Positions 2,132-22,045 of a DNA stretch of 47,410 nucleotides are shown piece by piece (the stretch's first letter is position 1; the number at the start of each line of letters is the position of its first letter). The notes below the pieces were generated by a model. It was not told the DNA's origin, did no database searches, and saw only the letters and a program-made list of their open reading frames with translations. Made by a program: the position numbers and the translations under genes. This DNA is from a virus. The stretch is taken from positions 1 to 47,410 of IMG/VR virus record IMGVR_UViG_3300047408_000099; one strand, given 5' to 3'.

Positions 2132-2394
2132 TTGATAGACTCTAGGGCGCGTTTGGCGATAGCTGGGCATTCATCAGCGTCGACGTCGGTCTTGTCTGCG
2201 ATCTCTTTCAGTGCCTCGCGTATCTTTTCGTTCTCGTTTTTCTCGTCACGCCAGCGGCCTTCCCAGTAGCGTTCGGCGCCCTCAAGTTTAAGCTTTGCGC
2301 GCAGCCGCACCACTTCATCGGCTAGCAGCGCAAGGGTTTTTACGTCGACGGGAATGATGGCGTTCGGTGCGAGCAATTTATCAATATCGGTCAT
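2128..2394 (-). CDS. Small acidic coiled-coil-like protein
   Basis: An 88-residue protein coupled at both ends: its start overlaps the methyltransferase stop and its stop overlaps the zinc-ribbon start. The middle (about residues 18-68) is charged and helical ('LADEVVRLRAKLKLEGAERY' then a lysine- and glutamate-rich stretch), suggesting a coiled coil. I recognise no domain. The tight coupling argues that it is translated with the methyltransferase and may be an accessory small protein. Confidence 0.75.
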   Translation of the reverse strand: MTDIDKLLAPNAIIPVDVKTLALLADEVVRLRAKLKLEGAERYWEGRWRDEKNENEKIREALKEIADKTDVDADECPAIAKRALESIK

Positions 2395-2957
2395 GCTTTA
2401 TCCCGGTGCAGCCACTGCATCTCTGGTTTGCCAGTATACCCATGCTCGAATACCAGCCAGCAATAATCGCTCTTGCCGCCGCCCACCTTGCCGCCGGCCG
2501 TGATGACATGGCCCGGTGGCATCGACGGCCGCGGGGTCAGCAACCAGACGCGGCGCAGCGGTGTATCGGTTAGCCACCGTGCCGCGTTCAGCCGCGCGGT
2601 CGGGAATATCACTGCGGTCTTGCGGCGTGAGTGGACTTCGGCAGCGAGCACGAACCGCATCATGCTCTCAAACGGCGGGTTGCAGACGATGTTGTCGTGC
2701 ATCCGGGTCTGCTCGAAGAAGTCTTCCACTGGATAGCCTTCGCCACGATCGACGCTGTCGGCGCCGGTCGCCTTGTAGTCGGACTTCTCGGCCATGTTGA
2801 CGATGCGGCCCAAGCCGCAGCACGGATCGTGGATCTTGCCTTCAAAGTCTTCGACCTCGAACAGTCGTTTGGATGTCCACAGCGGTTCGACGTACCATTC
2901 GTCGGTGCGGGGATATGCCGGGCTATGCGCGGCAACGTGGGTCCAGGGCTGGCTCAT
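2391..2957 (-). CDS. Phage DNA methyltransferase (N6-adenine type, SAM-dependent)
   Basis: A 188-residue class I methyltransferase. The SAM-binding motif I is DPCCGLGRI at residues 44-52, followed by an acidic residue after the second strand (TGADSVD). The catalytic NPPF tetrad lies at 93-96, the motif IV form of amino-methyltransferases acting on adenine in DNA. No separate target-recognition domain is seen, so it is compact, like phage Dam-like enzymes. It probably protects phage DNA from host restriction or marks it. There is no cognate endonuclease beside it, arguing against a restriction-modification pair. Start and stop overlap the flanking genes. Confidence 0.87.
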   Translation of the reverse strand: MSQPWTHVAAHSPAYPRTDEWYVEPLWTSKRLFEVEDFEGKIHDPCCGLGRIVNMAEKSDYKATGADSVDRGEGYPVEDFFEQTRMHDNIVCNPPFESMMRFVLAAEVHSRRKTAVIFPTARLNAARWLTDTPLRRVWLLTPRPSMPPGHVITAGGKVGGGKSDYCWLVFEHGYTGKPEMQWLHRDKA

Positions 2958-3301: not shown

Positions 3302-3618
3302 CACTGCGGCCCGCCGATCACGTGATCCTCGACCCGGGCGACCGCGATCTCCATGGCGCGGATCGTCTCTTCGCCTTCGGTGACCAGGCGCATGAACGTC
3401 GACATATGCGCCTCGGCCCGGGCCCGGGCTTCGATGATGGTCTTCTCCAATGAATCCAGCTGCTCGCGCATCCCCGTGACCCGGGACATCGCATGAGCAT
3501 GAACGTCGGCCATGGCGGCCGCAGCCCTGTTGATAACCTGGTCCGCCACGGCCAAGGATTGGGTCGACGGTTCGGTCAGCTCGTCGGCCAGTTTCTGCAG
3601 TTTCTCGCCTTCGTTCAT
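3301..3618 (-). CDS. Coiled-coil protein of unknown function
   Basis: A 105-residue, almost entirely helical protein rich in Ala, Glu and Arg, with heptad-like spacing through 'MREQLDSLEKTIIEARARAE'. The start at 3618 (MNEGEKLQ) is chosen because its ATG overlaps the stop of the regulator gene (GATGA); a longer frame would begin at 3657 inside that gene. It is the second gene of the leftward early cluster. I cannot name a function; it could oligomerise or bind a partner through its coiled coil. Confidence 0.75.
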   Translation of the reverse strand: MNEGEKLQKLADELTEPSTQSLAVADQVINRAAAAMADVHAHAMSRVTGMREQLDSLEKTIIEARARAEAHMSTFMRLVTEGEETIRAMEIAVARVEDHVIGGPQ

Positions 3619-3845
3619 CGCTTTTTCCTCTTCCTGGGGGCTACCCGCATGGGCCACAGATAGTCGGGAGCGTCGGCGCCGATCTCGGCGAGCTCGTCCT
3701 TGATTAACCTGTAAGTATCTGCCGGGAATTGCCTATCCGCCCGCCAGTTATAGACGCCGTTGATTGAGGTTCCGGTCAGTTCCGACACCATGTCGATGCC
3801 GCCGAGCGCGGTGATCACTTCAGCCGTGGTTTTGAGATGTGTCAT
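3615..3845 (-). CDS. Small helix-turn-helix DNA-binding protein (Cro-like)
   Basis: This 76-residue protein begins with a compact helical domain. Residues 8-33 ('EVITALGGIDMVSELTGTS' then INGVYNW) fit a helix-turn-helix of the YdaS/carph-isopro type used by Cro-like phage regulators. The tail is basic (RKRKKR), suited to DNA contacts. It is the first gene of the leftward cluster and faces the rightward gene at 3919 across a 73-base AT-rich region with an inverted repeat, the classic place for an autoregulated switch. I infer that it controls the divergent early promoters. Confidence 0.75.
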   Translation of the reverse strand: MTHLKTTAEVITALGGIDMVSELTGTSINGVYNWRADRQFPADTYRLIKDELAEIGADAPDYLWPMRVAPRKRKKR

Positions 3846-3918
3846 GAACCAGACCTAATTCAATCTTTTTGAGAATTCAAGCGTTGCTTCTCAGAATGTT
3901 TGATTTATAGTCGATTCG
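3846..3918. promoter_or_regulatory. Divergent AT-rich control region with candidate operator and promoter
   Basis: This gap separates the leftward HTH gene from the rightward gene at 3919. An inverted repeat TGAGAA...TTCTCA spans 3870-3893, with a smaller TTGAgaatTCAA dyad at its left end. On the plus strand TTGCTT (3884-3889), 16 bases, then TATAGT (3906-3911) resembles a sigma-70 promoter. The -35 lies inside the inverted repeat, so a bound regulator would block it. A leftward promoter is expected but I cannot place its -10 confidently. Confidence 0.5.
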
Positions 3919-4083
3919 ATGGACTCAGAAGCCGAACTACGCGAGCTGATGTTGACCGATGCCAAGGTGTATCGTGTCCGCAATCAAATTGCGGAACATG
4001 ATCCGCAGGCAAAACCGAAGGCGCGTGCTAAAGTCGTTGCGGTCAAATCAGACGATCGCCCAACAGAGGAACCACACCAATGA
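3919..4083 (+). CDS. Small charged protein, possibly leaderless
   Basis: A 54-residue ORF (starting MDSEAELREL) filling the space between the divergent control region and the secreted-protein gene. Its stop overlaps that gene's ATG (ATGA), which supports translation. No Shine-Dalgarno site precedes the ATG. The candidate promoter -10 box ends only 7 bases before the ATG, so the message could be nearly leaderless. The N-terminal half is predicted helical and the C-terminal half is rich in Lys, Ala and Pro. Function unknown. Confidence 0.55.
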   Translation: MDSEAELRELMLTDAKVYRVRNQIAEHDPQAKPKARAKVVAVKSDDRPTEEPHQ

Positions 4084-4736
4084 GCCGACTTCTTAGCACC
4101 GCCGCGGCGGTGCTGTTTGCTGCGTTCGCCCTGGCGTTGCCGGCGCGAGCTGACATTATCCTCGACACCACTGGCCAGGGTGGTACCGGCAACAACGTGA
4201 TCTTTTCCAGCGTTGCCAGCTCCAACCTGATCCTTGGCAAGCTCAACGGTCAGAACGACGAGGTCGTTCGCTTCCGTGACATGTCCGGTAACGGTGCCTT
4301 CAGCGGCGCTGCCAACGGCAATGACATCAAGATCGTCAACACCTCCGATCTCGATATCACGGTCTTCGACAAGACTGACCTTATCCAGCTGCTCACCACC
4401 AGGGATATCTTCTCGATCAAGGGAAGCGGCACCCTGTTTCTTCGGGTGACCGCCCTGGAGGCCAACGGCACGTTCCAGGACTTCAACTTCAGCAACGTGC
4501 TGGGGAACGGCCAGAACGGTTTTGACCTGAAGGCGATCAACGGCGAGCGGATCTTCGACGTTGACCTCCGGGTCGTTGGTGGCACCATCACCGACTTCGA
4601 ACACTTCCGTATCGATGTGGCGCCGTCTGTTACTGCGGTGCCATTGCCGATCGCCGGCGCTGGCGTTCCAGGCATAGTAGCAGCGTTGTGTGGTTTGGTT
4701 GCGTTGCGTCAGCGGCGTCGGCGTAGTGTAGCCTGA
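4080..4736 (+). CDS. Secreted protein with PEP-CTERM-like C-terminal sorting signal
   Basis: The 218-residue product has an N-terminal signal peptide (basic MSRLL, hydrophobic core to about residue 21, cleavage near PARA-D). The soluble body of about 160 residues is rich in Asn, Asp, Gly and Thr and looks beta-stranded. The C terminus has the order expected of a PEP-CTERM-type signal: a proline motif (VPLPIAGAG), a hydrophobic helix, then an arginine cluster (RQRRRR). In bacteria such signals are recognised by exosortase-type machinery and sort proteins to the surface. No exosortase is present here, so the host would have to supply it. It has an AGAGGA ribosome site and an intrinsic terminator follows. 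It looks like host-derived cargo (a moron) altering the infected cell surface; that role is inferred. Confidence 0.8.
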   Translation: MSRLLSTAAAVLFAAFALALPARADIILDTTGQGGTGNNVIFSSVASSNLILGKLNGQNDEVVRFRDMSGNGAFSGAANGNDIKIVNTSDLDITVFDKTDLIQLLTTRDIFSIKGSGTLFLRVTALEANGTFQDFNFSNVLGNGQNGFDLKAINGERIFDVDLRVVGGTITDFEHFRIDVAPSVTAVPLPIAGAGVPGIVAALCGLVALRQRRRRSVA

Positions 4737-4762
4737 TCATTGCTTGGTCGATCAGGTGAACG

Positions 4763-4799
4763 GGGCCGCAACTCCAAGCACGGATGTTGCGGCCCTTTT
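4763..4799 (+). terminator. Rho-independent terminator after the secreted-protein gene
   Basis: A perfect 10-bp stem (GGGCCGCAAC at 4763-4772 pairs with GTTGCGGCCC at 4786-4795), a 13-base loop and a TTTT run form a textbook intrinsic terminator 26 bases after the stop at 4736. Confidence 0.9.
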
Positions 4800-4818: not shown

Positions 4819-5007
4819 ATGAAAACGAGAGACGAGCTAGACGAAATGCTGGCCGTCGATGTTCTGAGCGACCCCGCTGTTCTCGATGGGCTTTCACCTC
4901 ATCAACGTCAGGTCGCGGAAGCTTGGCTTAAGCAATGCAACGATAGGCGCGGCATTCCCGAGTGGCCGCACAACAAGCGGGACGATGACGATCGGCGCGG
5001 AGATTAG
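4819..5007 (+). CDS. Small hydrophilic protein with RRGIPEWPHNK tail
   Basis: A 62-residue protein. The start at 4819 (MKTRDELDEM) has a GGGGAG ribosome site and lies just after the terminator; a longer frame from 4744 would run through the terminator and is rejected. The first 40 residues look helical. The C terminus carries RRGIPEWPHNK followed by an Asp/Arg-rich tail. The DNA for that motif recurs at 5830-5865 with 32 of 36 bases identical. Function unknown. Confidence 0.65.
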   Translation: MKTRDELDEMLAVDVLSDPAVLDGLSPHQRQVAEAWLKQCNDRRGIPEWPHNKRDDDDRRGD

Positions 5008-5163
5008 ATGCGCGATACCCACGCTCCAGGATGGTATGTGCTCAGCTTCGGAGCCTGTTGGTGGGTCACGATGGGAAGATACGTTCTGCGAATTGGCAAA
5101 CCGTGGAGCCGATACCGATACGCTTGGCGTCCGCTGCTGTCGTTCTTCCGCTGCTACAAATAG
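5008..5163 (+). CDS. Small aromatic- and arginine-rich protein
   Basis: A 51-residue ORF beginning immediately after the stop of the previous gene, so it may be translated by re-initiation. It is rich in Trp, Tyr and Arg. Residues 8-25 (GWYVLSFGACWWVTMGRYV) are hydrophobic enough to contact a membrane, though a full span is doubtful. No match comes to mind. Only context and lack of an alternative gene here support it. Confidence 0.4.
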   Translation: MRDTHAPGWYVLSFGACWWVTMGRYVLRIGKPWSRYRYAWRPLLSFFRCYK

Positions 5164-5179
5164 GAGAGGTTTAGGGCAA

Positions 5180-5401
5180 ATGAAAAAGCTAACGATGAAG
5201 CAGATCGAAGCCCTTCAATTGGTGAAGGAACGCCACATTGGGGGCGACTGCTATCGGTGTGTTTGGCGGTTCACGGACGGCAATAACACCTACACCTCCC
5301 AGGTCCGCGCGCTCGAAAGGGCGGGGCTGGTCAATGTGATGTACTTCGAAAACAACGAGTGCGCCGTCAATCTAACCGACGCTGGACGGGCAATCGCTTA
5401 G
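5180..5401 (+). CDS. Small winged-helix-like protein
   Basis: A 73-residue protein starting MKKLTMKQIE with a purine-rich site (AGGAGAGG and TAGGG) upstream. The order of elements, a helix (KQIEALQLVKE), a second helix (SQVRALERAGLV), then a hairpin ending in LTDAGRAIA, is typical of small winged-helix proteins that sense or bind DNA. A longer open frame from 4886 overlaps two other genes and is not credible. It sits in a run of rightward early genes and could be a regulator. Confidence 0.7.
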   Translation: MKKLTMKQIEALQLVKERHIGGDCYRCVWRFTDGNNTYTSQVRALERAGLVNVMYFENNECAVNLTDAGRAIA

Positions 5402-5410
5402 GAGAGGGCA

Positions 5411-5584
5411 ATGCAGACGATCACGGATGCTGCGGTTGAGAAGGTCGCGCGGGCAATAAATGCCAAGGCCGCCGAACTAGAGGGTTCGGAGGATATTTTT
5501 GATACCGGCAGCGACCAACAGCGTGCCTTCATCATGGCGTTAGGTCGCGCGGCCATCGAAGCAATGCGCGAAATGGAAATGTGA
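5411..5584 (+). CDS. Small helical protein of unknown function
   Basis: A 57-residue ORF starting MQTITDAAVEK, 10 bases after the previous stop, with GGAGAGG directly upstream as a strong ribosome site. It is largely alpha-helical, alternating Ala-rich and charged segments and ending EAMREMEM. No domain is recognised. Good spacing, a strong ribosome site and same-strand neighbours make it likely real. Confidence 0.65.
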   Translation: MQTITDAAVEKVARAINAKAAELEGSEDIFDTGSDQQRAFIMALGRAAIEAMREMEM

Positions 5585-5617
5585 CGCTTATGCGCCCTCA
5601 ACACCACGGAGGATCAT

Positions 5618-6655: not shown

Positions 6656-9600
6656 CTACCAGCCGCCTCCGCCAATAATCGGCATAGAACTCGAGCCGCT
6701 GCCGAAGTCGAAGCCACCGCCCCAGTCCAGCCCGGCACCGATGTTGCCGCCGCCACCACCCCAGCCCCAGCCGCCCAGCGTCTGCATCGGTATCGGTGAC
6801 AGGCCAGGCGCGCCGAAGCTTGAACGGTTCGCTGCCGCGGTGTCGAGCAACGGCGTCGAGTAGGTGCTGTTCTCGATCGGCGGCAGCATGCCCGCGGTGG
6901 CGATGGCGCCGCCCTGACTGGACACCATGCCCGGTATGGCGCCGGTTGGCACCGAACTCAAACCTGCAGGCGCCAGCGACAGCCCGCCGCTGGATGCGGG
7001 TCCGGCGGGCTGCGCCGGCAGCACCGGCAACGCATCCGCCGGTGTCGACGTTGGCGGTGCATTCGGCGCTACCCGGTCTTGATCCTTGAAGGCATCGGTC
7101 AGGGCCTTGGCAATCTCCGGCGTCATCGCCGGCTGTTGACCCTGCGGTTGCTCGGAGATCCGTGACGCCTCGTCCTGGTGCAGCTTCTCCGCGGCGGCGC
7201 CGGCCGCCTCGACCGAATCGAACTTGCCGAGATGCTTGCCGGTGTCGCGGTAGCGTTGCTCGGCCTCGGCATTCGACATGATCTTTCCGCCCTCGGGCGG
7301 CACGGTCGGGACGTTGACCTCCTTGCCTTGGTCCTCGATGCCGATCGTTCGCACGGTCGAGATCGAGCCGTCCTCGTTCTGCACCGGCTTCTGCTGCAGC
7401 GGATCCAGGGTCGGCGCATTGGGGTCTACCGCTGGCGTGGTCCGGCGCGCGGCACTGAAGTCGGTGGCATCGGAGGTGCCAAGGTCGCTGCGCTTGCCCG
7501 GCGCTACCGCCTTCGGTGGCCCTTCCTGGATGGCCTGGTCGAACTGCTGCGGGGTGACGCCGGCCTTGGCCAGGTTCTTCTTGGCCTCGGCGGCGACCGT
7601 GCCGCCGATCATTGGCGTGTTGATCGCCTCGCGCAGGGTCTTGTTGGCGATAAAACCAGGAATGTTGCCGACCTGGCTGGGGTCACCCTTCCTGACCAGG
7701 TCGATGACCTTCATGTCCAGGTAGGCATGCGCCGGGTTGACGGCCGGCTTCGGCGGCGCTGGCGGCGCCGGCTTAGCCACCGCAACAGGGGGAGCTGCTA
7801 CGGGGGGTGGCGCCGGCGCCGCCGCTGCCGGTGCTGCGGTTGGGGACGCGGCCACGGGAGCTGGGGCTGGAGCAGGGACCGGCGCCGGTGCGGGCGCCGG
7901 TGCGGGTGCGGGCTCTACCGCAGCCGATACCGGCGGCGCGTTGGTTGGCGTCCCTGGCTCCAGAGGATTGTCTTGTGACGGTATATCACTCGGCGCCAGC
8001 TCGGCAGGATCATCTTGCGAAGGCACGCTATCCACAGGCGGGGTATCCAGCGTGGCGGTCGGCGATGGAGCCCACGGCACCTTCTCCGGTGCCGGTGGCA
8101 GCGCATCCTTGGGCCCGGCAACCTGTGGAGCAGGCTGTGGAGAAGGCTGTGTGTCGGCTGTGGACGGTCCGAGCGACGCCACTTTGGCCGGCGCGGCCGC
8201 AGCCGCGGCCGGTGCTGTCTTGGGCGGGATGGAGTTCGCGATCGTCGCCGGATTGCTGAGCGCGACCTTGCGCGCCTTGTCCCACTGGGCATCGGTCAGT
8301 GGATATTCTTTTGATGAATCGGTTTCGTAGCGCGCCATCGCCTTGAGGAACTTGAGGCCGTCCGGCGACGCTAAAAACTCAGGCGTGATCCTGGTGTTGC
8401 GCGAAATCCCGGTGCGCTGCTCGATGATCGGTGCATAACTCTCACCGTGACCGACCCATTGGCCGATCATGTCCTGCATGGTCTTGCCGGAATACAGCGG
8501 TGACTGCGCCATCTTCTGGATGGCACCGGCGGCGCCGGCTTCCTTGTTGGCATACACCGCCGGGGTGTCGTGCTGGGTGATCTGGATGCCCGGCTTGCCG
8601 CCGTGCGCGCTGGCGTAGGCGTCGTGCCACATATTGAAAGGATTGTTGAACCGCTCGCCGGCTGGGATCGACTTGTTCTGCAGCGTCGCCAGGTCGGGGT
8701 GCTCGCCGGCGTGCAGTGACACTGCGCCGCCCGGCCCTGCGGCCGGCGTCGCGGTCGGGGCTGCACCTGCGGCGGGCGCTGCCGCACCAGCTGCCGGGGC
8801 TGGCTGAGAGAATGGTTGCCCTTTGTAAGCCGGGTTGGCTTGGACGTGCGGGGCGTCGCCTTTGACCGGGAAGTGCAGGCCGTACTGGTCCTGGTTGCCG
8901 GCGTACAGCCACTTCCTGAAACCACTATCCGGCAGGTCGCCGGCGCCGCCGTGCTGGTGCTGGGAGCCGCCCGGCCTGGCGGCGATGCCGCCGGTGCCGG
9001 CTTCGTACTTGTCGCGGTAGATCTTCTGGACGTCTTCGCCGCGAGAGAACTCGCCGTACTGGGCCTTCTGTCCTGGGTTCTGTTTCTCATAGGCCTCGCC
9101 GGCGGCGCGCAGCCGTGCCGCGAGCTCGGGGTCGATCTGCTTGTAGCCGCCGGCCTGGGTCAGCGGCGCGTCAACGATCTTGCCGTCCTTCAGCACGCTG
9201 TGGTGGCCGCCGCGCTCTTGCAGGTAGGCCAGGTCGGCCTGGTAACCGGGGCCCGCGGCTGACGGCGCCATCGGTGCATTCAACCTGGCCCGGTTAGCGC
9301 CTGGCCCAGGTCGGTATGGTCCCTGCGTCGGTCCGGATCCTTGTCCGACTGGCGGCTGCGCCTGTTGATTCTGTTGCACGCGCTGCAGCGCGCTGGTGGT
9401 GGCGGCGTTGAGACCACCCAGAAGGTTGCCGTACTCGTCGCCGCCGCTGTGCTGCGGCTGCAGCGAAGCGTGCAGCTGTCCGGTCAGCGGCGCCACCTTG
9501 AGCGGGTTGGCCTCGTCGACCTTGATCTTCCCCGGCCCCGATCTGAGCAGGTTCTCCACCACTTGGGTGGTCTGGCTCGGCGGTGTGCCTGGCGGCACGA

Positions 9601-9727
9601 TGCCGAGGTTGATGCCGAGCGCGTGCATCGCTGCCGTGGTGTCGGCGCCGAACATCGGCGTCTTGCCGGCGATCATGGCCTGCTTACTCTTCTCCCGCTC
9701 GAGCGCCATCTCGTCCATGTAGGCCAT
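6656..9727 (-). CDS. Large virion protein with M15 peptidase and lysozyme-like domains
   Basis: This 1023-residue protein is the last gene of the late operon. Residues about 165-296 carry the signature of M15 zinc peptidases cutting peptidoglycan stem peptides: SQHQHGGAGD at 255-264 fits SxHxxGxAxD, with likely zinc ligands His257, Asp264 and His294 and acidic Asp291. Residues about 355-490 contain FNNPFN and resemble lysozyme-like domains of phage structural proteins. A long Ala/Pro linker (about 500-665) leads to a third region around 785-850 (TVRTIGIED, VNVPTV, TGKHLGKFDS), a module seen in phage virion proteins. The C terminus is glycine-rich. It probably rides inside the particle and opens the cell wall during DNA entry, and may also serve in lysis since no separate endolysin is seen. 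Confidence 0.82.
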   Translation of the reverse strand: MAYMDEMALEREKSKQAMIAGKTPMFGADTTAAMHALGINLGIVPPGTPPSQTTQVVENLLRSGPGKIKVDEANPLKVAPLTGQLHASLQPQHSGGDEYGNLLGGLNAATTSALQRVQQNQQAQPPVGQGSGPTQGPYRPGPGANRARLNAPMAPSAAGPGYQADLAYLQERGGHHSVLKDGKIVDAPLTQAGGYKQIDPELAARLRAAGEAYEKQNPGQKAQYGEFSRGEDVQKIYRDKYEAGTGGIAARPGGSQHQHGGAGDLPDSGFRKWLYAGNQDQYGLHFPVKGDAPHVQANPAYKGQPFSQPAPAAGAAAPAAGAAPTATPAAGPGGAVSLHAGEHPDLATLQNKSIPAGERFNNPFNMWHDAYASAHGGKPGIQITQHDTPAVYANKEAGAAGAIQKMAQSPLYSGKTMQDMIGQWVGHGESYAPIIEQRTGISRNTRITPEFLASPDGLKFLKAMARYETDSSKEYPLTDAQWDKARKVALSNPATIANSIPPKTAPAAAAAAPAKVASLGPSTADTQPSPQPAPQVAGPKDALPPAPEKVPWAPSPTATLDTPPVDSVPSQDDPAELAPSDIPSQDNPLEPGTPTNAPPVSAAVEPAPAPAPAPAPVPAPAPAPVAASPTAAPAAAAPAPPPVAAPPVAVAKPAPPAPPKPAVNPAHAYLDMKVIDLVRKGDPSQVGNIPGFIANKTLREAINTPMIGGTVAAEAKKNLAKAGVTPQQFDQAIQEGPPKAVAPGKRSDLGTSDATDFSAARRTTPAVDPNAPTLDPLQQKPVQNEDGSISTVRTIGIEDQGKEVNVPTVPPEGGKIMSNAEAEQRYRDTGKHLGKFDSVEAAGAAAEKLHQDEASRISEQPQGQQPAMTPEIAKALTDAFKDQDRVAPNAPPTSTPADALPVLPAQPAGPASSGGLSLAPAGLSSVPTGAIPGMVSSQGGAIATAGMLPPIENSTYSTPLLDTAAANRSSFGAPGLSPIPMQTLGGWGWGGGGGNIGAGLDWGGGFDFGSGSSSMPIIGGGGW

Positions 9728-11949
9728 CAGCGCACCGGACGGTTCTGTTGCTGCTCAGCCTGGATGGCGGCGAGGGCTGCTCCCAATTGATTGATGCCAC
9801 CCGGTCCTTGGCCGCCAGCCAGGGCGTTCCGCACGGTCGGGCCTTCCAGGATGCCGCCGAGGAGATGGCGAACGGCCGGCATGCCGAGCACGCCGGCGAT
9901 CCGTCCGGCCAATTCACCCGGCCAACCGGCAATGGCGCCGCCGGCCCGGCCGAGGGTTTCCTGACCGACCAGCATCCGGCCGACGCTTTCGTTCTGACCG
10001 CCGACGCTGCGGGTCAGACCGTTTTGTTGCGGAGGGATGTCCAGCGCGCGCGCCAGGCCGACCTGGTCGGAGACGTTGGCGAGCTGGTCGCCGAGCGAGA
10101 TCGCCCGCGATTCCGGCTCCATGCCGGTGTAGTGCTCGGCGTACTGTGCCGGCCGGCGAGCGCCGCCCTGTGGATTGTTTATGGTCTGGTTGGCGACCAG
10201 CCGCATCTGATCACCTAATATTTCACGGACGAGAGGGTGCCCGGTGGCCTCCAAAATGCCCGGTACATTGGGGTTTTGGTAGCCGCTGTTCAGGTAGCTG
10301 TAGGCTCTGGCCGGATCCTCGTTGATGTAGCGTTGCAAGGTGGGGTAATCGCCAATTGGTCCACCCGGCGTGGCCGGCGTGGTGCGCTCGATCGCGCGGG
10401 TCATGTCGTTGACGTTGTTGAAATTGCGCGGATCGACGCCCTGACGTACCGCGGCTTCGCGCATGACATCGGTGGCCGGCGGGTAGAGTTCCGCAGTCGC
10501 CGGCTGCCGAGCGCCGCCGCGTTCAATTGATTTGCCGAGTTCGGTGCGGAAGCCGGCGAAGTCTCCGTATGGCGCTGTATCTGACATCCGCCCGCCGGTG
10601 CCGATTGGCTGCTGGATCGGATCGCCGCCGGCATTGCGAGTGATCAATGGTGGTAGTTCGTCGGTGAGCCGCTGATCGATCGCTAAGCGTTGTGTCGGCA
10701 TGAGCCTGGCATTCGGATCGGTCATTATGCTGTAGCCGCGCTCGCGCACTGGATCGACCGCCACCGGCGTGTCGGCGCCGATCCGGTCCGTCAGCGCACT
10801 CTGCCGGGCGTCGCTGGCCGCGCGCAGTGATTCCGCGCTCTCGCCTGCGGCCTGGCTCAGCTTGGCGCCGATCGTGCCCTCGGTCGGCTGTGCCGCAGTG
10901 GACCCGCGTTCTACCGCCGAGCGATCGGCAGCGGCGCCGATTTGGTTGCGGGCGTTGCTGCGGGCCTCCTGAATGACATCGGCAGCGCCAGCCTGGCCGG
11001 ATCGCTTCTGTTCGAGGCGTAGAATGGATTCATTGCCGAGCATGCCGGCGGTCGGGGTGACGCCCTGGCGCGCCGCGGCGGCGGCAATCTGAGGCGCGTC
11101 GGCGCGGCCTTCGCCGGCGTAGAGCTGATGGATGATCGACTGCGCGGCCGGCTTTGCCGCCAGGACCGAGCCGCCGAGCAGGGAGCCGATGTACCGGCCG
11201 GTTTCTTCGTCACCGAGGAGCTTGCCAATCTGCGCGCCGCCCTCACCGCCGTAATGGCCGGCCACTGTCGGGACCACCGTCGGCGCCGCCATGCGGGCGG
11301 TCGTGCTGATGATCGGTATGGCCTTGCCAGTCGTGGCGGCGGTCACCCGTGCCGCTTGCAGGGGGCCGGTCGCCGCGCCGGCGCCGCCGCCAAGGAACGC
11401 GCTGCCGCCCGCTTCTAGGAGTTGCCGGGCCAACCCGGCATCGGCCGGCAGCGCCGCCGTACCGGAGTTCGCCAACATCTTCGGCGTGACATATTCGGCT
11501 TGTGATTTTGGGCTGCCGATGAACCGTGCGCCGGCGTTGTAGCCGCCGATGGCGAGATCGGGGATGCCGCCGATCGCACCAGCGACAACCCGGCCGATGG
11601 TGTTGTCGGCGTTGTACGGATCCGAGGTCAGGCGCTTGGCCGTCATCAGGTCGTCGATGCTTGGTACGTTCTCCGACCCCGGCACAGGTTTCGGTTCTGG
11701 CGCCGCCTTGCCGTTCCACCAGTCGGAAATCGAGCGATCGGTGTCATTGATGCCGAGTCCCGCCTTGGCACGGCCCCATAGATCTTCGGTGAAGCTCTTG
11801 GCCGATCCCGCCGGCGGCGGTGGGGCTGAAGGCTTGTCAGGGTGCAGCGCCCGGTAGGCGTTCGCCATGTGAACGTAGTCGGACGTACCCTCCTTATCGG
11901 GGTTGTCCCGCAGCCACGCGCCGACGTCTTCAAACTTGGGTTCGGCCAT
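9727..11949 (-). CDS. Putative internal virion / DNA-ejection protein
   Basis: A 740-residue protein between two other large structural genes, joined to the next by a TGATG overlap. The N-terminal 90 residues are charged with a Pro-rich stretch. Residues about 110-270 are Gly- and Ala-rich with several hydrophobic segments ('VVAGAIGGIPDLAIGGYNAG', 'SAFLGGGAGAATGPL') that could enter a membrane. The middle is helical and polar, and the C terminus again has Gly-rich hydrophobic stretches. No enzyme motif is seen. Length, position and membrane-seeking segments fit ejection proteins that form a channel across the cell envelope. This is inference by analogy with T7 gp15/gp16 and P22 gp16/gp20. Confidence 0.62.
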   Translation of the reverse strand: MAEPKFEDVGAWLRDNPDKEGTSDYVHMANAYRALHPDKPSAPPPPAGSAKSFTEDLWGRAKAGLGINDTDRSISDWWNGKAAPEPKPVPGSENVPSIDDLMTAKRLTSDPYNADNTIGRVVAGAIGGIPDLAIGGYNAGARFIGSPKSQAEYVTPKMLANSGTAALPADAGLARQLLEAGGSAFLGGGAGAATGPLQAARVTAATTGKAIPIISTTARMAAPTVVPTVAGHYGGEGGAQIGKLLGDEETGRYIGSLLGGSVLAAKPAAQSIIHQLYAGEGRADAPQIAAAAARQGVTPTAGMLGNESILRLEQKRSGQAGAADVIQEARSNARNQIGAAADRSAVERGSTAAQPTEGTIGAKLSQAAGESAESLRAASDARQSALTDRIGADTPVAVDPVRERGYSIMTDPNARLMPTQRLAIDQRLTDELPPLITRNAGGDPIQQPIGTGGRMSDTAPYGDFAGFRTELGKSIERGGARQPATAELYPPATDVMREAAVRQGVDPRNFNNVNDMTRAIERTTPATPGGPIGDYPTLQRYINEDPARAYSYLNSGYQNPNVPGILEATGHPLVREILGDQMRLVANQTINNPQGGARRPAQYAEHYTGMEPESRAISLGDQLANVSDQVGLARALDIPPQQNGLTRSVGGQNESVGRMLVGQETLGRAGGAIAGWPGELAGRIAGVLGMPAVRHLLGGILEGPTVRNALAGGQGPGGINQLGAALAAIQAEQQQNRPVR

Positions 11950-11950
11950 A

Positions 11951-13714
11951 TCACGGTGTCCCTAACAGCTTCCTGTCGAGCGCGGCCTTGTCCTCCGGCG
12001 ACAACGGCGGCTTAGACCCAGTCGGCACCGCCGCGGCCGCGGCTGCAGCCGCCTCTTTCTTATCGCCTTCCATGCTGTCGGTCCGGCCGCTGCGGGTGCT
12101 GACGTAGCTGGCGTCAGGCGGCCGCAAGGTCAGCATCGGCGGCAGATATTTATTGTAATCAACCTTACGATCGGTCAGTTGCACGGCGTGTTGTTCATAG
12201 ATCGGTTTGATGTTGGCGTTGTGCTCGATCATCGCGGCGTGGACCATGTTCCACAGCTGCATCCGCACTTCCGGTGGCAGTCGGGCTTCACCCTTCAAGC
12301 TCTGCAATTGACCGATGAACCGATCCATAATGCCGCCGGTCTGGCGAACGTTCGCGACTTCGCCTTCGCGCACCACTGACGGCGGATCGAGGATCTTTGC
12401 GGCGCCGACGATCATCGCCAGGTCGGAGGTTTGGTTATTTAACGGCACGTTGCCGATGAAGGTGGCGTAGCCGGTCTTGGCGTTCTCGTAGGAATGAATG
12501 ACCGGGTTTTTCAGGTAGTCGGCGACCACCGGACGCGGATCGCCTTTTCCGATCGAGCCATCCGACGCCGGTACCGGAGCCGGCACCGCCGGCGCGCCCG
12601 TTGTGGCAGGCACGGTTGGTGGCACAGCCGGCGCCGTCGTCGGTGCCGTCGTCGGTGCTGTCGTAGCGGGTACCGTAACCGCGCCAGTCCCGCCGCCGCC
12701 GATCTGTTGGCGAGAGGCGCCTGGCCGGCCGTCGACATGGTCGAGCGTGTCGATCAGCCAGGCGCCGGGTCCGGTCGTTGGCAGCGGCATCTTGAAGAAC
12801 GGCCGCGGTATGGTCTGGCCGGTTTCCTTGTTGGTGTCCCAGTGAATCTCACTCTGCCAGCCGGCATCCCGCATGGCGCGGGCGTTATTCAATTCGGCGT
12901 TGGTTACCGTTTCACCTCTGGCCGCCTTGGCTTGGATCGTCGCCGCCAGCTGGTTGAAGTTATTCTGCGCGATCGGCACGGACTCGATCGGATTGTCGGC
13001 GCCAACCTTGCCCTGTGCAGCCTCGACCAAGCTGTCATTCGGACCCAGCTGAACCGGCGTTCCGTCAACCTTGGTGCGGCCGCCGGTGAGTGACGCAAAC
13101 GATTCTCCAGTGGCCCGGCCGTTTCTGTAGATCGTGAAGTTCTGCGCGTTCGGGACTTTGGTTTCATCCGAGGTCGGAAACCGGCCAGTGGTCTGGAATT
13201 GCAGTCGCGCGCGCTCGCGCGGGTCAGCCGGCGCGCCGCCAGCCGCCACCTCGGCGTGCGCTCCCTGCGTCGCCCACTGCGAAGGATCTTTCAAGAGTGT
13301 TGCCCGAAGTCCGGTGTCGGCCGCCGCTCTCCTGGCCTGGGCCGCGGCCAACGCCCGCGGGTCTATGAACTGTTCTGTCGACGGATATGACGGCAAGAAT
13401 GCTTGATTGGGTGGTGCGCTAGGATCCGGCGCATCAGCTGGATTGACCGGCCCTTGCGGTTGAAACTGAATCTCGCGGGTGCTCGTCGGCACCGAGGCTT
13501 CGGGAATAGCGGCCGCGTTGGTTTCGGCAGCTTTCTTGGCGGCGTTCCACCGCTCGGTATCGCGGGCGCGATCCTCGCGCGCCTTCAGGATCTCTTCGAC
13601 CTTGCCGGCGTTGCTCAACGCCACGCCAGGCGCGGCGGTGAGGCCCTTCATCAAGCTGGAGGCGAAGTTACCGGCCCAAGGATCCTGTTGGAATTGAACG
13701 AAGTCCGAGCCCAT
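11951..13714 (-). CDS. Putative virion protein, internal or tail-associated
   Basis: A 587-residue protein beginning MGSDFVQFQQDPWAG. After a helical, charged N-terminal 75 residues come mixed regions and a low-complexity Thr/Pro/Ala stretch near residues 340-390 (TTAPTTAPTTAPAVPPTVPA). The C-terminal 150 residues are more ordinary and helical ('VRMQLWNMVHAAMIEHNAN'). Its place between the gp14-like gene and the large ejection-type proteins suggests it is packaged in the virion. I recognise no catalytic motif. Confidence 0.6.
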   Translation of the reverse strand: MGSDFVQFQQDPWAGNFASSLMKGLTAAPGVALSNAGKVEEILKAREDRARDTERWNAAKKAAETNAAAIPEASVPTSTREIQFQPQGPVNPADAPDPSAPPNQAFLPSYPSTEQFIDPRALAAAQARRAAADTGLRATLLKDPSQWATQGAHAEVAAGGAPADPRERARLQFQTTGRFPTSDETKVPNAQNFTIYRNGRATGESFASLTGGRTKVDGTPVQLGPNDSLVEAAQGKVGADNPIESVPIAQNNFNQLAATIQAKAARGETVTNAELNNARAMRDAGWQSEIHWDTNKETGQTIPRPFFKMPLPTTGPGAWLIDTLDHVDGRPGASRQQIGGGGTGAVTVPATTAPTTAPTTAPAVPPTVPATTGAPAVPAPVPASDGSIGKGDPRPVVADYLKNPVIHSYENAKTGYATFIGNVPLNNQTSDLAMIVGAAKILDPPSVVREGEVANVRQTGGIMDRFIGQLQSLKGEARLPPEVRMQLWNMVHAAMIEHNANIKPIYEQHAVQLTDRKVDYNKYLPPMLTLRPPDASYVSTRSGRTDSMEGDKKEAAAAAAAAVPTGSKPPLSPEDKAALDRKLLGTP

Positions 13715-15822: not shown

Positions 15823-16130
15823 CAGATCTGGCCTGTCTTTAAGGCGTCAGGTGCCAGCACAGTCTGTGCCAGCGTGTTGCCGATCGGTCGGGTCGGGTCT
15901 TTGGTAACCTGCATCGTGCTTGGGATCTCTACGCCGGCCGATATCGGCGAGACGTTGTCGGTGTTGTCTGGCGGCGGCGGTGGCGGCGGTGGTGGCGGCG
16001 GGGGTGGCGGCGGCGGCGCCGGCTCTTCAGGCGGTGGTGGTGCTGGATCGTTCGGCTTCAACAAGCTCGCCAGAGCGTTGTTGGTATTGTCCACCGGCAT
16101 CTGCTGTTGCGATCGGCCCTTGCCACCCAT
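15822..16130 (-). CDS. Small MGGK-series protein with 16-proline run
   Basis: A 102-residue protein starting MGGKGRSQQQ. It contains 16 consecutive prolines encoded at 15969-16016, preceded by PPPPEEPAP, then a conserved-looking C-terminal part (SPISAGVEIPSTMQVTKD, GNTLAQTV) shared with the next gene. The run would stall ribosomes without elongation factor P, so the host must supply it. Both ends overlap neighbours by TGATG, supporting expression. The proline arm may act as a rigid spacer; function unknown. Confidence 0.6.
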   Translation of the reverse strand: MGGKGRSQQQMPVDNTNNALASLLKPNDPAPPPPEEPAPPPPPPPPPPPPPPPPDNTDNVSPISAGVEIPSTMQVTKDPTRPIGNTLAQTVLAPDALKTGQI

Positions 16131-16639
16131 CAGAGTTTCTTTCTGAAGATCATGCCGACCGGCTCGGCGCCGAAGTGTCGACCGACCATGTTCATGAGGG
16201 AGTTCTGCTCCTTCATGCCGCTGCAGATTGGGAAGTTCATCACCTTGCAGCCGTCGGCACGGGCCAAGGTGATGACGGTTTCGATCAGTCTGCGGCCGAG
16301 GTCAGTCCGCCTATACTTTGGTATCGTGTAGGTCTCATCCATCACCGCCAGCGGTTCCGAAAACACGCTGAACACGTGGTAGGAGCAGACCCCCACCATA
16401 TCTTCGCCCTCCATGGCGAGGACGTACATGGCGAACTGTGTACCTATGGCAGCGCGGAGGTACACCTCGGTCCGATCGCGGTGGTACCTAAGATATTCCG
16501 ACCACTTCGACAGCTCGAAGAACGTGCCAAGGAAGTCAGCGACCATCGCTGCGTCCTTAGCTTCGCCCATGCGGATGTTAATGTGCGGAGTACGCACAGT
16601 CCGCTTGGGCCTTTTGAGTTCGGTCACCGTCATATTCAT
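16130..16639 (-). CDS. GNAT-family N-acetyltransferase-like protein
   Basis: A 169-residue protein with the GNAT fold order: strand and helix (INIRMGEAKDAAMVADFLG), central strands (MYVLAMEGEDMVGVCSYHVF), 'DETYTIPKYRRTDLGRRLIE' as the acetyl-CoA pyrophosphate-binding motif A (R/QxxGxG/A equivalent, here RRTDLG), then motif B helices. Its start region overlaps the previous gene by about 60 bases; starts at 16639 and 16633 are both possible and an AGGTGG lies upstream. Located among structural genes, it may modify a virion or host protein, or be a structural use of the fold. Confidence 0.72.
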   Translation of the reverse strand: MNMTVTELKRPKRTVRTPHINIRMGEAKDAAMVADFLGTFFELSKWSEYLRYHRDRTEVYLRAAIGTQFAMYVLAMEGEDMVGVCSYHVFSVFSEPLAVMDETYTIPKYRRTDLGRRLIETVITLARADGCKVMNFPICSGMKEQNSLMNMVGRHFGAEPVGMIFRKKL

Positions 16640-17096: not shown

Positions 17097-18529
17097 CCGC
17101 TTTCTCCGACCTGGTAATGCACCACCATGTTGGACAGGGTCTGCGGACCTGTCGCCTGTGACCGCAGCCGCAACGACATGTGCGTGGTGCGGGCGTGTAT
17201 CTCCTGTTTGCCTTGCAGGAAGGTCGGACCGTTGAACTCGCCAATGACGTCCTCGACCGTGGGGTCTTCGATGTTGAACGCCGCCGATACTTCCCACGGA
17301 ACGCCGGCGCAGGTGGCGTCGAGGCCGACGAAGGTCTTGAAGGTGGCGACCTGCTCGCCGGCATGAAAAGGGAAGATCAGCTCGACCGGGCAGTCATCGT
17401 AGACCGGGCCAACATCGGAAATGCCGCCGTAGGAATAGACCTGGTTGGCATCGTCGCGGACAATCACGCGGTTCTGGTGGATGCAGGCGGCCGTGATCAC
17501 AAAGCCGGCGTCGTACTCCGACCAGGCCGTGATCTTCGGACCTGGAAATGCACTCAGCACATAGATCTTCGACGTCAACGGCGCATCAGGCGTGCTCCGG
17601 GATCCGGCCATGATGATCCAGAACCGGCCGGTGACGGGTTGCAATAACGCAATGGTGCCGCTCATCCAGTCCTGGCCCATGGTGCGGAATAAATCCTGCA
17701 GCAGCGGATCGAGCGGCGAGCCGATGTCGGACACCGCCGCGGCCAAGCTCGAGTTTCTTGCGCGCAACGAGCGCACGCCGGACTGCGACATGTACATCAC
17801 GTCGCCAGAGCCGTACTGCATGACGCTGCGCCAGGCGGTGGTGCCGGCCTGGCGCAAGGTTTGGACATACTGATTCTTGGTAAAGTCCGGATCCATGATC
17901 CATAGTTGGACCGCAGTGCTGCTGAAGATGGCGAGCTTGTCGTAGTACACCTCCAGCGCCACGCTATCGGTCATGTCGCTGTCGCCCATCGACAGGTCGA
18001 TGAAGTTGGTCGGATTGGGCTCGGCCAGGCCGGACCAGTCGCCGGCGTTGCCGATCGCCGAGAAGTAGAGAATGCTCTTCTCCACCGTGTACATCTTGTT
18101 CTTGTAAGTTCGGCAGTAGAAGCCTCTGGCCAGCGGCAGGTCGACGCCGTCGTAGAAGCGGCCGACCGTGCCGGCGGCGTCCTTCCACAACAGCACGAAC
18201 ACTTTGTTGTCGAACAGATCGTAATCGATGATTTCATGGATGGTCGGCGTGGCCTGCCCCAGCACGCCCACCGACCAGGTGCCGGACGGCGGCTCGACCA
18301 CATAAGGGCCGGTCGGGCCGAAGGTGTAGAGCTTCTGGTTGACTTCGACGATGCCTTTGCTGGTTGGGTCGCACGACCAGAACGGCACGAACGCCATGCG
18401 CTTTTCTATTTCACCGCCCGGCGTCACATGACAGTTGGTCATACGGCGTAGCGTGCCGGCCGGCGCGGTCAACTCAGACCGACGCAGATCCAATCCGGCA
18501 GCGAAGTCGGTGATGGTAAAATATGGCAC
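17093..18529 (-). CDS. Tail nozzle-like / head-completion protein
   Basis: A 478-residue, mostly beta protein with repeated short blade-like phrases (KLYTFGPTGPYVV, NKVFVLLWKDAAG, NKMYTVEKSILYFSAIG), suggesting a propeller-type fold. Such proteins form the tail nozzle or stabilise packaged DNA in short-tailed phages (T7 gp12 or P22 gp10 class). It directly follows the adaptor gene, the usual order of these two. The length is close to P22 gp10 and shorter than T7 gp12. I cannot decide between the two families from the sequence alone. Confidence 0.72.
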   Translation of the reverse strand: MPYFTITDFAAGLDLRRSELTAPAGTLRRMTNCHVTPGGEIEKRMAFVPFWSCDPTSKGIVEVNQKLYTFGPTGPYVVEPPSGTWSVGVLGQATPTIHEIIDYDLFDNKVFVLLWKDAAGTVGRFYDGVDLPLARGFYCRTYKNKMYTVEKSILYFSAIGNAGDWSGLAEPNPTNFIDLSMGDSDMTDSVALEVYYDKLAIFSSTAVQLWIMDPDFTKNQYVQTLRQAGTTAWRSVMQYGSGDVMYMSQSGVRSLRARNSSLAAAVSDIGSPLDPLLQDLFRTMGQDWMSGTIALLQPVTGRFWIIMAGSRSTPDAPLTSKIYVLSAFPGPKITAWSEYDAGFVITAACIHQNRVIVRDDANQVYSYGGISDVGPVYDDCPVELIFPFHAGEQVATFKTFVGLDATCAGVPWEVSAAFNIEDPTVEDVIGEFNGPTFLQGKQEIHARTTHMSLRLRSQATGPQTLSNMVVHYQVGESG

Positions 18530-18541
18530 CGACCCTCTCCA

Positions 18542-19330
18542 TTAGCCTGGGATGTAATCGATGTAAGGCACACGGTACGTGCGCTTATCGGGGTCGTGAC
18601 CGCCGCGCTGGTTGCCGCCCATATTGTAATTGGCTCTCTTATCGGCGCCCTGATCAGCCAGGAGCCGGCGCAGGTAGTTCTGCGCCTTGGTCAACTTCAT
18701 GGGCGCGGCTTCACTCTTGCTGGTCGCCAAGGCTTCCGCCGCGGCGAACATCACGATGGCTTTGGAATCCAGGACACAAGTATCGGTCGGCGCGACCAGC
18801 GGGGATAACGGGGCCTGGCCCTCGAACCGCAACACATAACTGACCTTCGGCGTGTTGGTATTATCCGGCGGCGTCGGCAGCAATTGGAATTGACCGACCG
18901 GGTTGGTGATCGGCACCGGACCTGTGGTGTTGATCGTCACCACATTGCTCCAGCGCAACGGCGCGCCGGTCTTGACCGGACCGAGGTGCATCATGAACGG
19001 CTTGATGCCGTAGACCAGCGGCGTCCAATGCGACGCCGAGATGATGTTCCCGACATCATCCTTGGTGACCTGCGCGATGTAGACCTGGACGATCTGATCG
19101 AACGCCATTTCCTTTGGGTAGGTGTAGATCGATTGCAGACCGACCAATGGCACGTCGGTCCAGATCTTGAGATGCTGCCAATTGTAGGCGTCCCACAGCT
19201 CGCGCTGCTGGCGTGCCAATAAAATATCAATGGTGTCCTGCGCCTGTATCCCCTGGTTGGGGTTGAGCGACGTGCCGGTTTCGGCACGCAGCTCGCGGCG
19301 CAGCTCTAAGAGCGTAACACCCAGCGGCAC
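18542..19330 (-). CDS. Head-to-tail adaptor (gp11 / tail tubular A-like)
   Basis: A 262-residue protein. Its N-terminal helices (TLLELRRELRAETG, then 'DTIDILLARQQRELWDAYNW' and QHLKIWTDVPLVGLQSIYTYP) match the recurrent pattern of phage adaptor proteins that form a ring under the portal. The middle is beta-rich and the C terminus helical (AQNYLRRLLADQG) with a glycine-rich tail. Its position after the capsid and before the nozzle-like gene fits. It shares a one-base stop-start overlap with the upstream gene. Confidence 0.77.
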   Translation of the reverse strand: MPLGVTLLELRRELRAETGTSLNPNQGIQAQDTIDILLARQQRELWDAYNWQHLKIWTDVPLVGLQSIYTYPKEMAFDQIVQVYIAQVTKDDVGNIISASHWTPLVYGIKPFMMHLGPVKTGAPLRWSNVVTINTTGPVPITNPVGQFQLLPTPPDNTNTPKVSYVLRFEGQAPLSPLVAPTDTCVLDSKAIVMFAAAEALATSKSEAAPMKLTKAQNYLRRLLADQGADKRANYNMGGNQRGGHDPDKRTYRVPYIDYIPG

Positions 19331-19788
19331 TAGCCGGCGTCCTTATGCTCCGGCGGCGGCGGCGGTGACCGGCGGCCGCGCGGTGAAGGTCTGAAGATCG
19401 GTTCGAGGTTGGGCTCGGCGCTGCCAACCGCATCCTCGTCATCAACAGCACCCGGCGGCGCCACCACAACGGAAGGCTTGCCCTCTTCGTAACGCGGCAG
19501 GTTGACCTCTTCGGTCATCATGTAATCCATGCGGAACGCCCGCCCCGGAAAACACGCTTCGACAATACGATGGCCGTAGATGCCCGCCAGCCGGTTCTTC
19601 TCCTGGGTCGGCCACACTTCGCCGACGCCGACCGGCATGATGTCCATGACGTTCTCGTCGCCGTGCATCGCCTGCAACACTTGCACCTCCGGCCAGGTCA
19701 CCGGATTGTGCTCGCCGTAGATCACGGTGTGGCAGTTCTGACCGGCCAGGTTGATCTTGCAGGTGCAGTACTGGATCTGTTTGGACAT
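19330..19788 (-). CDS. Small structural-region protein with disordered tail
   Basis: A 152-residue protein with an excellent AGGAGG ribosome site. The first 100 residues look folded (YCTCKINLAGQNCHTVIYG, with three Cys, then PEVQVLQAMHGDENVMDIMP). The last 50 are acidic then Pro/Arg-rich (RGRRSPPPPPEHKDAG) and probably disordered. It lies between capsid and adaptor genes, where head-closure or minor capsid proteins are common, but no motif identifies it. Confidence 0.7.
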   Translation of the reverse strand: MSKQIQYCTCKINLAGQNCHTVIYGEHNPVTWPEVQVLQAMHGDENVMDIMPVGVGEVWPTQEKNRLAGIYGHRIVEACFPGRAFRMDYMMTEEVNLPRYEEGKPSVVVAPPGAVDDEDAVGSAEPNLEPIFRPSPRGRRSPPPPPEHKDAG

Positions 19789-19803
19789 AGTCCCTCCTGT
19801 TGT

Positions 19804-19856
19804 GGCCGAGGTGACAGCGGCCCAATCTTGCGGAGTAAACCGCTACCACCCCGGCC
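19804..19856 (-). terminator. Long imperfect stem-loop just after the capsid gene
   Basis: Bases 19804-19820 and 19840-19856 are inverted repeats matching at 14 of 17 positions, with a 19-base loop, seven bases beyond the capsid stop at 19864. There is no T-run. It may slow transcription or protect the capsid mRNA end, giving high capsid output; that is inference. Confidence 0.5.
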
Positions 19857-19863
19857 GTTTCGA

Positions 19864-20982
19864 TCAGGTAATATCCATGACGAGAGCGCCATTGAGGCGT
19901 CGCGCACAGAGCTGCCCGGTCGAAGTGAGAGCGCGATAGATGACGTACTTGTCTGGTGTGCGCTCGGGTGAGTGCTGGTGCCGCCACTCGTCTTGCATGG
20001 CAACCAGGTAGATGTCGCGCGAGTCAAACCAGTAGCAACGCTTGCTCTTGCCGAGCTGGTCCAGCGTCGGGTCGTATTCGAAGTCGGTGCCGGCATAAGA
20101 AATCTGCCCGACACTGACGTCCTTGGCACCGGAGAAGCCCTGCATGCTGTAATTGCCGTTGGCACGCAGCTCGCCTTCCAAGGCGCCGAGCCAGTCCGAT
20201 CCGCAGAAGCCGGTGTTCGGCTTGGCACCATAACGGGTGAGCTGCCGGTACTCCTTCTGGAGCAACGTGATCAGCGCCCCGCCGTTGGCGGCCGCAGACG
20301 TGATAGGACCGCCGCCCCAGGCTGCCAGTGCGGGTGTCGTGCCGACTGCGGTTCCCATGGCGGCGGTGTAGGCGCGGTTTCTCCACCACACCTTCTGGGC
20401 GCGGTTGATACCGGCCACAATGCCTGTGCTCGGATCATCGGTGACCAGTGCCGCCATGCCGGCAAGGGCTTTGGCGTCAGTGGCACCGTTGGTCCACAGC
20501 AGGTTGTTCATGCAGCGGGCGTACTGCTCGCTGACATCCTGCAACGCATCCTGCAGCAGGCCGACCAGGACGGTGTCGTCGCGGCCGGAATGCTCGGACA
20601 CATCGTCCATGTTGCCTTCATCGGTGACGGTGATGCCGTCGGATTTCAGCTCACTGTGCGTGAGCATGATGCCGATGTGGTGCTCCTTCCAAGGAAACAC
20701 CGCTTGGGTGAGGTTCGCCGGCGTATAGTAGGTGACCGGATCGGCCAGCTCGTAGCCTTTGAGCTGATCGTCAGTGCCAGGCGCGGCAGTGTTGCCGAAA
20801 TCCCCCTTAACGCTGATGATAATATTCCCCTTACCCCCGGGGAAGGTCTTCTTCTTGCTCTCCATCGCGGCGAGCAGTGGCTTCTCTTGGATGGCCTCTT
20901 GAAAGGCCGTCCCCTTGTTCATCCACCAATCAAGCGCAGCCGTAGTGATATGCGCGAGCAGTGGCGCGGTATAAACAGGCAT
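19864..20982 (-). CDS. Major capsid protein
   Basis: A 372-residue protein in the canonical place, after terminase, portal and scaffold and before the adaptor. The first 45 residues are helical ('LDWWMNKGTAFQEAIQEKPL'). The body has the mixed helix-sheet pattern and large size expected of HK97-fold capsids, including a helix with DALQDVSEQYARCMNNLLW that fits the spine helix. The end is strand-rich (IYRALTSTGQLCARRLNGAL). No cleavage site is apparent. A GAGAGG site precedes the ATG. The assignment rests on order, length and composition. Confidence 0.82.
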   Translation of the reverse strand: MPVYTAPLLAHITTAALDWWMNKGTAFQEAIQEKPLLAAMESKKKTFPGGKGNIIISVKGDFGNTAAPGTDDQLKGYELADPVTYYTPANLTQAVFPWKEHHIGIMLTHSELKSDGITVTDEGNMDDVSEHSGRDDTVLVGLLQDALQDVSEQYARCMNNLLWTNGATDAKALAGMAALVTDDPSTGIVAGINRAQKVWWRNRAYTAAMGTAVGTTPALAAWGGGPITSAAANGGALITLLQKEYRQLTRYGAKPNTGFCGSDWLGALEGELRANGNYSMQGFSGAKDVSVGQISYAGTDFEYDPTLDQLGKSKRCYWFDSRDIYLVAMQDEWRHQHSPERTPDKYVIYRALTSTGQLCARRLNGALVMDIT

Positions 20983-21000
20983 GGCAGCAGCCTCTCATGA

Positions 21001-21984: not shown

Positions 21985-21997
21985 GTTGAATTCTCCC

Positions 21998-22013
21998 GGT
22001 GCCATGCGGCACC
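21998..22013 (-). promoter_or_regulatory. Small hairpin before the scaffold ribosome site
   Basis: GGTGCC-ATGC-GGCACC is a six-bp stem with a four-base loop, six bases upstream of the GGGAG site on the transcript. It hides the upstream ATG at 22005 in its loop, favouring the downstream start, and may tune scaffold translation. Confidence 0.35.
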
Positions 22014-22045
22014 TTTGTTGTGTTTACGTCAATTCAGTTGCCGAG

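Follow-up and report, generated by a model that had tools for sequence, protein, structure and literature searches.

Whether a phage may pass a protein of its own through the exosortase sorting of its host is the question raised by a gene in IMG/VR virus record IMGVR_UViG_3300047408_000099, the whole stretch of which (47,410 bp) was analysed and is called the window here. Sorting by exosortase to the surface or exopolysaccharide has been proposed for PEP-CTERM proteins (PMC1569441). The explanation that we consider probable as a whole is that the gene represents one variant of a phage surface-display cassette, which would rely on exosortase-class sorting by the host, exchange its bodies and alter the cell surface.

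The gene, its protein and the contig

The ORF at 4080-4736 (+), from ATG to TGA, encodes a protein of 218 aa (P0001), in which a signal peptide, a beta-sandwich domain, VPLPIAGAGVPG, a membrane helix and RQRRRR follow one another, with a strong terminator behind (Table 1). After the domain of 157 residues comes PSVTAVPLPIAGAGVPGIVAALCGLVALRQRRRRSVA; VPLP occupies residues 187-190, GAGVPG residues 193-198 and RQRRRR residues 210-215. In an AlphaFold2 model built with 48 homologues (mean pLDDT 88.5), residues 25-180 form the beta-sandwich and residues 195-217 a helix, and the linker at the VPL motif is disordered. P0001 has the signal peptide expected of a PEP-CTERM-class exosortase substrate, as judged from the sequence, family conservation and a helix in the model, as well as the PEP-CTERM-class order of Pro motif, transmembrane helix and terminal basic cluster.

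Table 1. Features at the P0001 gene and elsewhere in the window (window coordinates)
Feature	Position	Strand	Evidence
ORF of 188 aa with NPPF motif, MTase-like	2391-2957	-	Reading by eye; no Pfam match
Divergent ORF of 76 aa, small HTH regulator-like	3615-3845	-	Reading by eye; no Pfam match
Weak sigma-70-like promoter match 5' of the 54-aa ORF	3869-3897	+	9/12 consensus positions; 1 found vs 0.4 expected
ORF of 54 aa overlapping the P0001 start codon (ATGA), probably co-transcribed	3919-4083	+	Sequence; comparable ORF lies before the gene in each of the two G010 sister phages
P0001 CDS, predicted exported protein with C-terminal tag	4080-4736	+	At least 101 IMG/VR relatives; body dN/dS 0.02-0.24
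P0001 signal peptide, residues 1-24 (MSRLLSTAAAVLFAAFALALPARA), likely cleavage after ARA	4080-4151	+	Sequence; family-wide presence; AF2 helix 2-17
P0001 ectodomain, residues 25-181, beta-sandwich, swapped "body"	4152-4622	+	AF2 pLDDT mostly >90; weak CBM-like/jelly-roll fold matches; replaced in sister phage L188
Putative P0001 C-terminal sorting signal, residues 182-218: AVPLPIAGAGVPG, TM helix 195-217 and RQRRRR	4623-4733	+	Sequence, AF2; L188 DNA identity resumes at codon 182
Intrinsic terminator	4762-4799	+	dG -26.8 kcal/mol, z -4.6, UUUU tail; inside the 94%-identical block common to window and L188
Terminase large subunit	24655-26232	-	phrog_38, E 3.5e-100

The initial annotation had described a gene for a protein with a clear signal peptide, followed by a textbook terminator, and both are confirmed, the former by the ORF, the sequence and family conservation and the latter by the stable fold and its UUUU tail. 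It had also described a VPLP-type motif with a helix and an arginine cluster; this layout stands, but the motif is not VPLPA: it reads as P-x-P-x-x-GAG-x-PG (called GAG type below), and P0001 gave no match to the PF07589, TIGR02595, NF035944 and TIGR03370 models even at E 10. The GlyGly-CTERM model (TIGR03501) gave no match at E 10 either. Considering that P0001 has no PEP-CTERM model match, the protein taken alone proves little on sorting.

Signal peptide, domain and tripartite C-terminus are retained in homologues down to ~43% identity, and this retention together with the low dN/dS of the body (0.02-0.24) excludes chance as the source of these features; the P0001 domain is under purifying selection. 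No relatives of P0001 were detected among named phages and plasmids, and none by sequence in the PDB. The fold matches, which include FlaA1 and CBM29, are weak (TM-score about 0.3-0.45), too weak for any ligand to be assigned to P0001.

Besides the terminase, the window encodes DNA polymerase, helicase, exonuclease, primase and tail proteins, which identify the contig as that of a phage. It is very unlikely that the contigs are bacterial or chimeric and that the genes are those of hosts: IMG/VR contigs are uncultivated and one of them (G010, see below) joins two sister genomes, but the terminase (3.5e-100), helicase, DNA polymerase, primase and tail genes of the window, the terminases or virion proteins detected in the majority of the other contigs tested, the occurrence of the gene on many independent contigs and the lack of a close bacterial homologue among 85k species genomes all argue against this. 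No integrase of family PF00589 was found in the window or its sister contigs. Two further regions of the window may be mentioned. A GNAT acetyltransferase (PF00583, 2e-8) lies at 16130-16639 (-) amid genes without known function or structure, and three large consecutive ORFs (1023, 740, and 587 aa) at 6656-13714 (-) have almost no PHROG match. The 740- and 587-aa ORFs are just 32-36% alike between close sister phages, and may therefore be fast-evolving virion proteins.

Three signal types on one domain and on unrelated bodies

At least 101 relatives of P0001 were found in IMG/VR, 80 of which were fetched, and signal (tag) types were compared in a set of 48 aligned homologues. The GAG type was observed in 31, the canonical PEP-CTERM type in 13 and the VPLPA type in four. 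The domain is conserved throughout (such as EHFRID... near its end) while the tail varies, from P-x-P-x-x-GAG-x-PG in the GAG type to VPE.STW..MILGF..GVG...RKRR in the PEP-CTERM type. About nine tag switches were placed on a maximum likelihood tree of the domain alone, and at least six GAG switches are forced by well-supported branches. PF07589 matched 13 of the 48 homologues (best 5e-8), PEPxxWA-CTERM also matched 13, and homologue L074 lies above the curated NF035944 and TIGR02595 cut-offs. The profile search proposed in the initial annotation was negative for P0001 itself but positive for its homologues, some of them above curated cut-offs. In three homologues (L027, L028, and L031), a hybrid tail was observed, in which VPGPVAG is followed by VPEPGTW..M..IGF and a long extra C-terminus (EFRW...). 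It is possible that these hybrids are intermediates of a signal switch, with one tail laid over another.

Additional tagged proteins were identified by scanning the fetched phage DNA for a signal peptide plus a tripartite tail, and the combined set comprises 91 distinct proteins in ten body groups mutually unalike by BLASTP; four of the five bodies with at least two members carry more than one tag type. One of these proteins (L049, positions 7027-7599) is an FxDxF family PEP-CTERM protein with 76.6 bits against NF038126 (cut-off 50) and 26.1 bits against PF07589 (gathering score 20.7). The same FxDxF body recurs with a GAG tail in L002 and L080, and the L002 protein, which combines this body with the GAG signal, matches NF038126 at 0.00044, which is below the cut-off. 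A second body family, for which the AF2 model is only moderate (pLDDT 70), occurs at 22 phage loci with GAG, PEP and VPLPA tails, and one member (L219) exceeds the VPLPA-CTERM (TIGR03370) cut-off.

When tag types were assigned by motif patterns written for this analysis and the list of 12 phages with at least two tagged proteins was curated by hand, 11 of these phages had a single tag type, compared with 4.5 expected by shuffling (p about 3.5e-5). Phages with two or three such proteins also show what is expected of this substrate class, namely unrelated proteins of one genome that are alike in the C-terminal region only, a relationship also observed between L188 and the window. The sole mixed case is the 80-kb phage G008, which has two members with the P0001 domain (L012, positions 4950-5594, and L131, positions 10891-11550), one with the GAG and one with the PEP type. 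There is strong support for the claim that the phage encodes a secreted protein whose sorting signal is PEP-CTERM-like, since in other phages this domain is joined to canonical PEP-CTERM or VPLPA signals and unrelated domains share a signal within one phage or at the locus of sister phages. Homologues that would reveal an ordinary membrane anchor were looked for and not seen.

Body exchange at the locus and its spread among phages

Phages related to the window were located through a neighbouring gene, the 188-aa ORF serving as the query for the slot of the cassette. In one of them (L188), about 780 bp of DNA ending at the start codon are 87% identical to the window, the body has no detectable DNA similarity, and identity resumes at 94% from codon 182, where the signal starts, through the terminator. 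Between the two sister genomes of G010, homology reaches into the codons of the signal peptide, is lost over two unrelated bodies and returns at the signal. The same pattern of kept ends and replaced body was observed between L192 and L193. A more distant relative of the window (L191) has an FxDxF PEP-CTERM protein in the corresponding slot, and this protein is above the NF038126 and NF035944 cut-offs. The locus is a body-swapping cassette with a fixed tag, whose ends persist while its middle is replaced. Such swapping of the body with the tag retained in related phages suggests that phages use host sorting machinery to alter the infected-cell surface.

G010 itself (IMGVR_UViG_3300021082_000020, L133-L137) is 94,958 bp long and consists of two sister phage genomes of ~47 kb end to end, which are 74-90% identical in blocks. 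This arrangement is probably an assembly join that inflates the size of the contig.

The spread of the cassette was examined by comparing 15 phage records carrying the gene with the window, only part of the contig being compared for some. Two are close relatives and some share replication genes only, while four (G001, G009, G015, and G036) have no gene in common with the window at E 1e-5 except that of the tagged protein. Considering that G001 and G036 have integrase genes and that the window and its sisters have none, the cassette extends over more than a single lifestyle or lineage. An interpretation of G001 as a Mu-like phage with host flanks was rejected, as its transposase looks like that of an insertion element and an integrase gene is present on the same record. 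The replicative helicase of G001 is 58% identical to one in a plasmid remnant of Microvirga ossetica, a weak hint of Hyphomicrobiales hosts. The remnant on that plasmid (L233, positions 18191-22206) is a prophage-like replication region with a DUF1376 protein and a DnaB-like helicase.

Among known systems, PEP-CTERM/exosortase sorting of Gram-negative bacteria (EpsH, XrtA-type; PF07589, TIGR02595, and NF035944 for the signal, PF09721 for the enzyme) resembles what we observed in having a signal peptide and unrelated bodies that share only a Pro motif, a helix and a basic C-terminus, and several phage homologues lie above its curated models. However, the present genes are phage-encoded with no exosortase on the contig, and the GAG motif of P0001 is outside existing models. 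The P0001 system probably works like PEP-CTERM sorting, an assignment that comes from the homologues and the layout and not from P0001's own model scores. VPLPA-CTERM (TIGR03370) is similar in the VPLP at the signal start of P0001 and in L219, which is above the cut-off, but the motif in the window continues as IAGAGVPG. The FxDxF family (NF038126) provides the bodies of L049 and L191, both above its cut-off, which differ from that of P0001. No report of phage PEP-CTERM proteins was found in the open-access full-text literature, subscription journals and preprints being outside this scope, and their novelty is provisional; a Microcystis paper concerns host genes.

Host enzymes, origin and possible role

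An exosortase was present in 35 of 289 sampled Alphaproteobacteria (12%) and in none of 47 phage records. No close bacterial homologue of P0001 was detected in 85k species genomes (38 pattern matches, none a relative), and the only bacterial relative of the domain found is L085 in G348, a distant PEP-CTERM protein of like layout, which matches the complete profile at 9.6e-8 but is marginal when only the domain is used (0.004 for a nominal million sequences). G348, one of the 35 exosortase-positive genomes, encodes two exosortases. These results imply that the protein class is likely to have come from bacteria; recent transfer from a host, for which the initial annotation had proposed a comparison, is not supported.

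No convincing GAG signal was detected in 289 Alphaproteobacteria or 399 Pseudomonadota, in which the scoring of only 20-28 candidates per genome limited the sensitivity of the short profile. A scan for bacterial GAG tails with A2 gave 46 unconfirmed pattern matches, and tblastn of a 30-aa GAG consensus against plasmids and phages gave no match, perhaps owing to the low-complexity filter. The matches in the 289 and 399 genomes were mostly due to chance, such as L181 (the end of a membrane protein) and L234 (a receptor-like protein), and L118 is an ordinary VPLPA-type protein. The one bacterial protein with a GAG-like C-terminus (L095) is short and secreted, and ends with PMPGPIAGAGLPLLLIGGAYLLLRRRRR and a short tail; its genome (G529) has no PF09721 exosortase, which may indicate either a different sorting enzyme or a simple anchor.

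Two alternatives bear on these observations. First, the GAG C-terminus might be a mere tail anchor, so that the protein would stay unprocessed in the inner membrane facing the periplasm. This is consistent with the lack of a model match for the GAG type, with the lack of a GAG-bearing exosortase host among the sampled bacteria and with the GAG-like tail of L095 from a genome without a PF09721 match, but it leaves unexplained why P-x-P-x-x-GAG-x-PG is conserved on unrelated bodies, why true PEP-CTERM or VPLPA signals replace it on the same bodies and why tags agree within a phage, and we regard it as unlikely. Second, the GAG type might be read by a C-terminal sorting enzyme other than an exosortase, for instance a protease resembling rhombosortase or an enzyme not yet described. 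The GlyGly-CTERM/rhombosortase system (PMC3237569) does have a tripartite C-terminus with Gly at the helix start, which the Gly-rich motif recalls, and G529 combines a GAG-like tail with the lack of PF09721. However, the P0001 family has a preceding Pro motif like that of exosortase signals and exchanges with PEP and VPLPA signals, and the 48 homologues show no GlyGly-CTERM among their listed NCBIfam matches (25 of 27), which makes such an enzyme improbable.

For the preferred reading, namely exosortase-class sorting of an exchangeable phage protein, the following course may be proposed. P0001 would be exported via Sec by the signal peptide read from its sequence and, judging from sequence and model, its C-terminal helix would anchor it in the inner membrane. 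A host exosortase-class enzyme would then recognise the P-x-P-x-x-GAG motif, remove the anchor and pass the freed domain on to the surface of the cell or its exopolysaccharide. The domain is exchanged between a signal peptide and a sorting signal that phages retain, with recombination across these conserved ends as the probable process, and the signal type changes between phages, probably with the host. A broader proposal, to which we give even chances, is that many unrelated soil phages keep such an exosortase-dependent display cassette with its signal tuned to the host enzyme, and that the GAG signal (P-x-P-x-x-GAG-[LIV]-PG ... RRRR) is an unmodelled class with its own cognate enzyme.

The likeliest benefit would be an altered surface of the infected cell. 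Phages are known to encode surface proteins for superinfection exclusion and lysogenic conversion, such as T5 Llp, P22 SieA, and Cor. P0001 would resemble these as a phage-encoded envelope protein and in the proposed benefit, but its putative C-terminal sorting signal and cassette-exchanged bodies set it apart. Considering the absence of an integrase and the fast-exchanging displayed domain, interference with other phages fits best as the benefit, and blocking superinfection by competing phages is a plausible role, if somewhat short of an even chance. A change in EPS or biofilm comes next and appears rather doubtful. Similarly doubtful is an interpretation in which the sorting is right but the protein is a component of the exopolysaccharide or floc matrix that changes host aggregation instead of blocking superinfection. 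In bacteria, floc formation involves PEP-CTERM proteins (PMC9850573), exosortase loci adjoin EPS genes (PMC1569441), and the weak CBM-like fold similarity points the same way, whereas the lack of an integrase in the window and sister contigs means that any benefit would have to act within one lytic cycle, and the bodies are exchanged in the manner of exclusion or antigen genes.

Descriptions of exosortase sorting present it as a path by which bacteria reach their surface and exopolysaccharide. Should phages feed proteins of their own into this pathway, it would be a target in phage-host and phage-phage conflict, and the signal type would be a sequence readout of the hosts that a phage can use. 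The natural swaps, in which one body has different signals or one signal has different bodies, are ready pairs for testing both recognition and the function of the displayed domain, and behind the GAG signal there may be an exosortase, or a related enzyme, for which no model exists.
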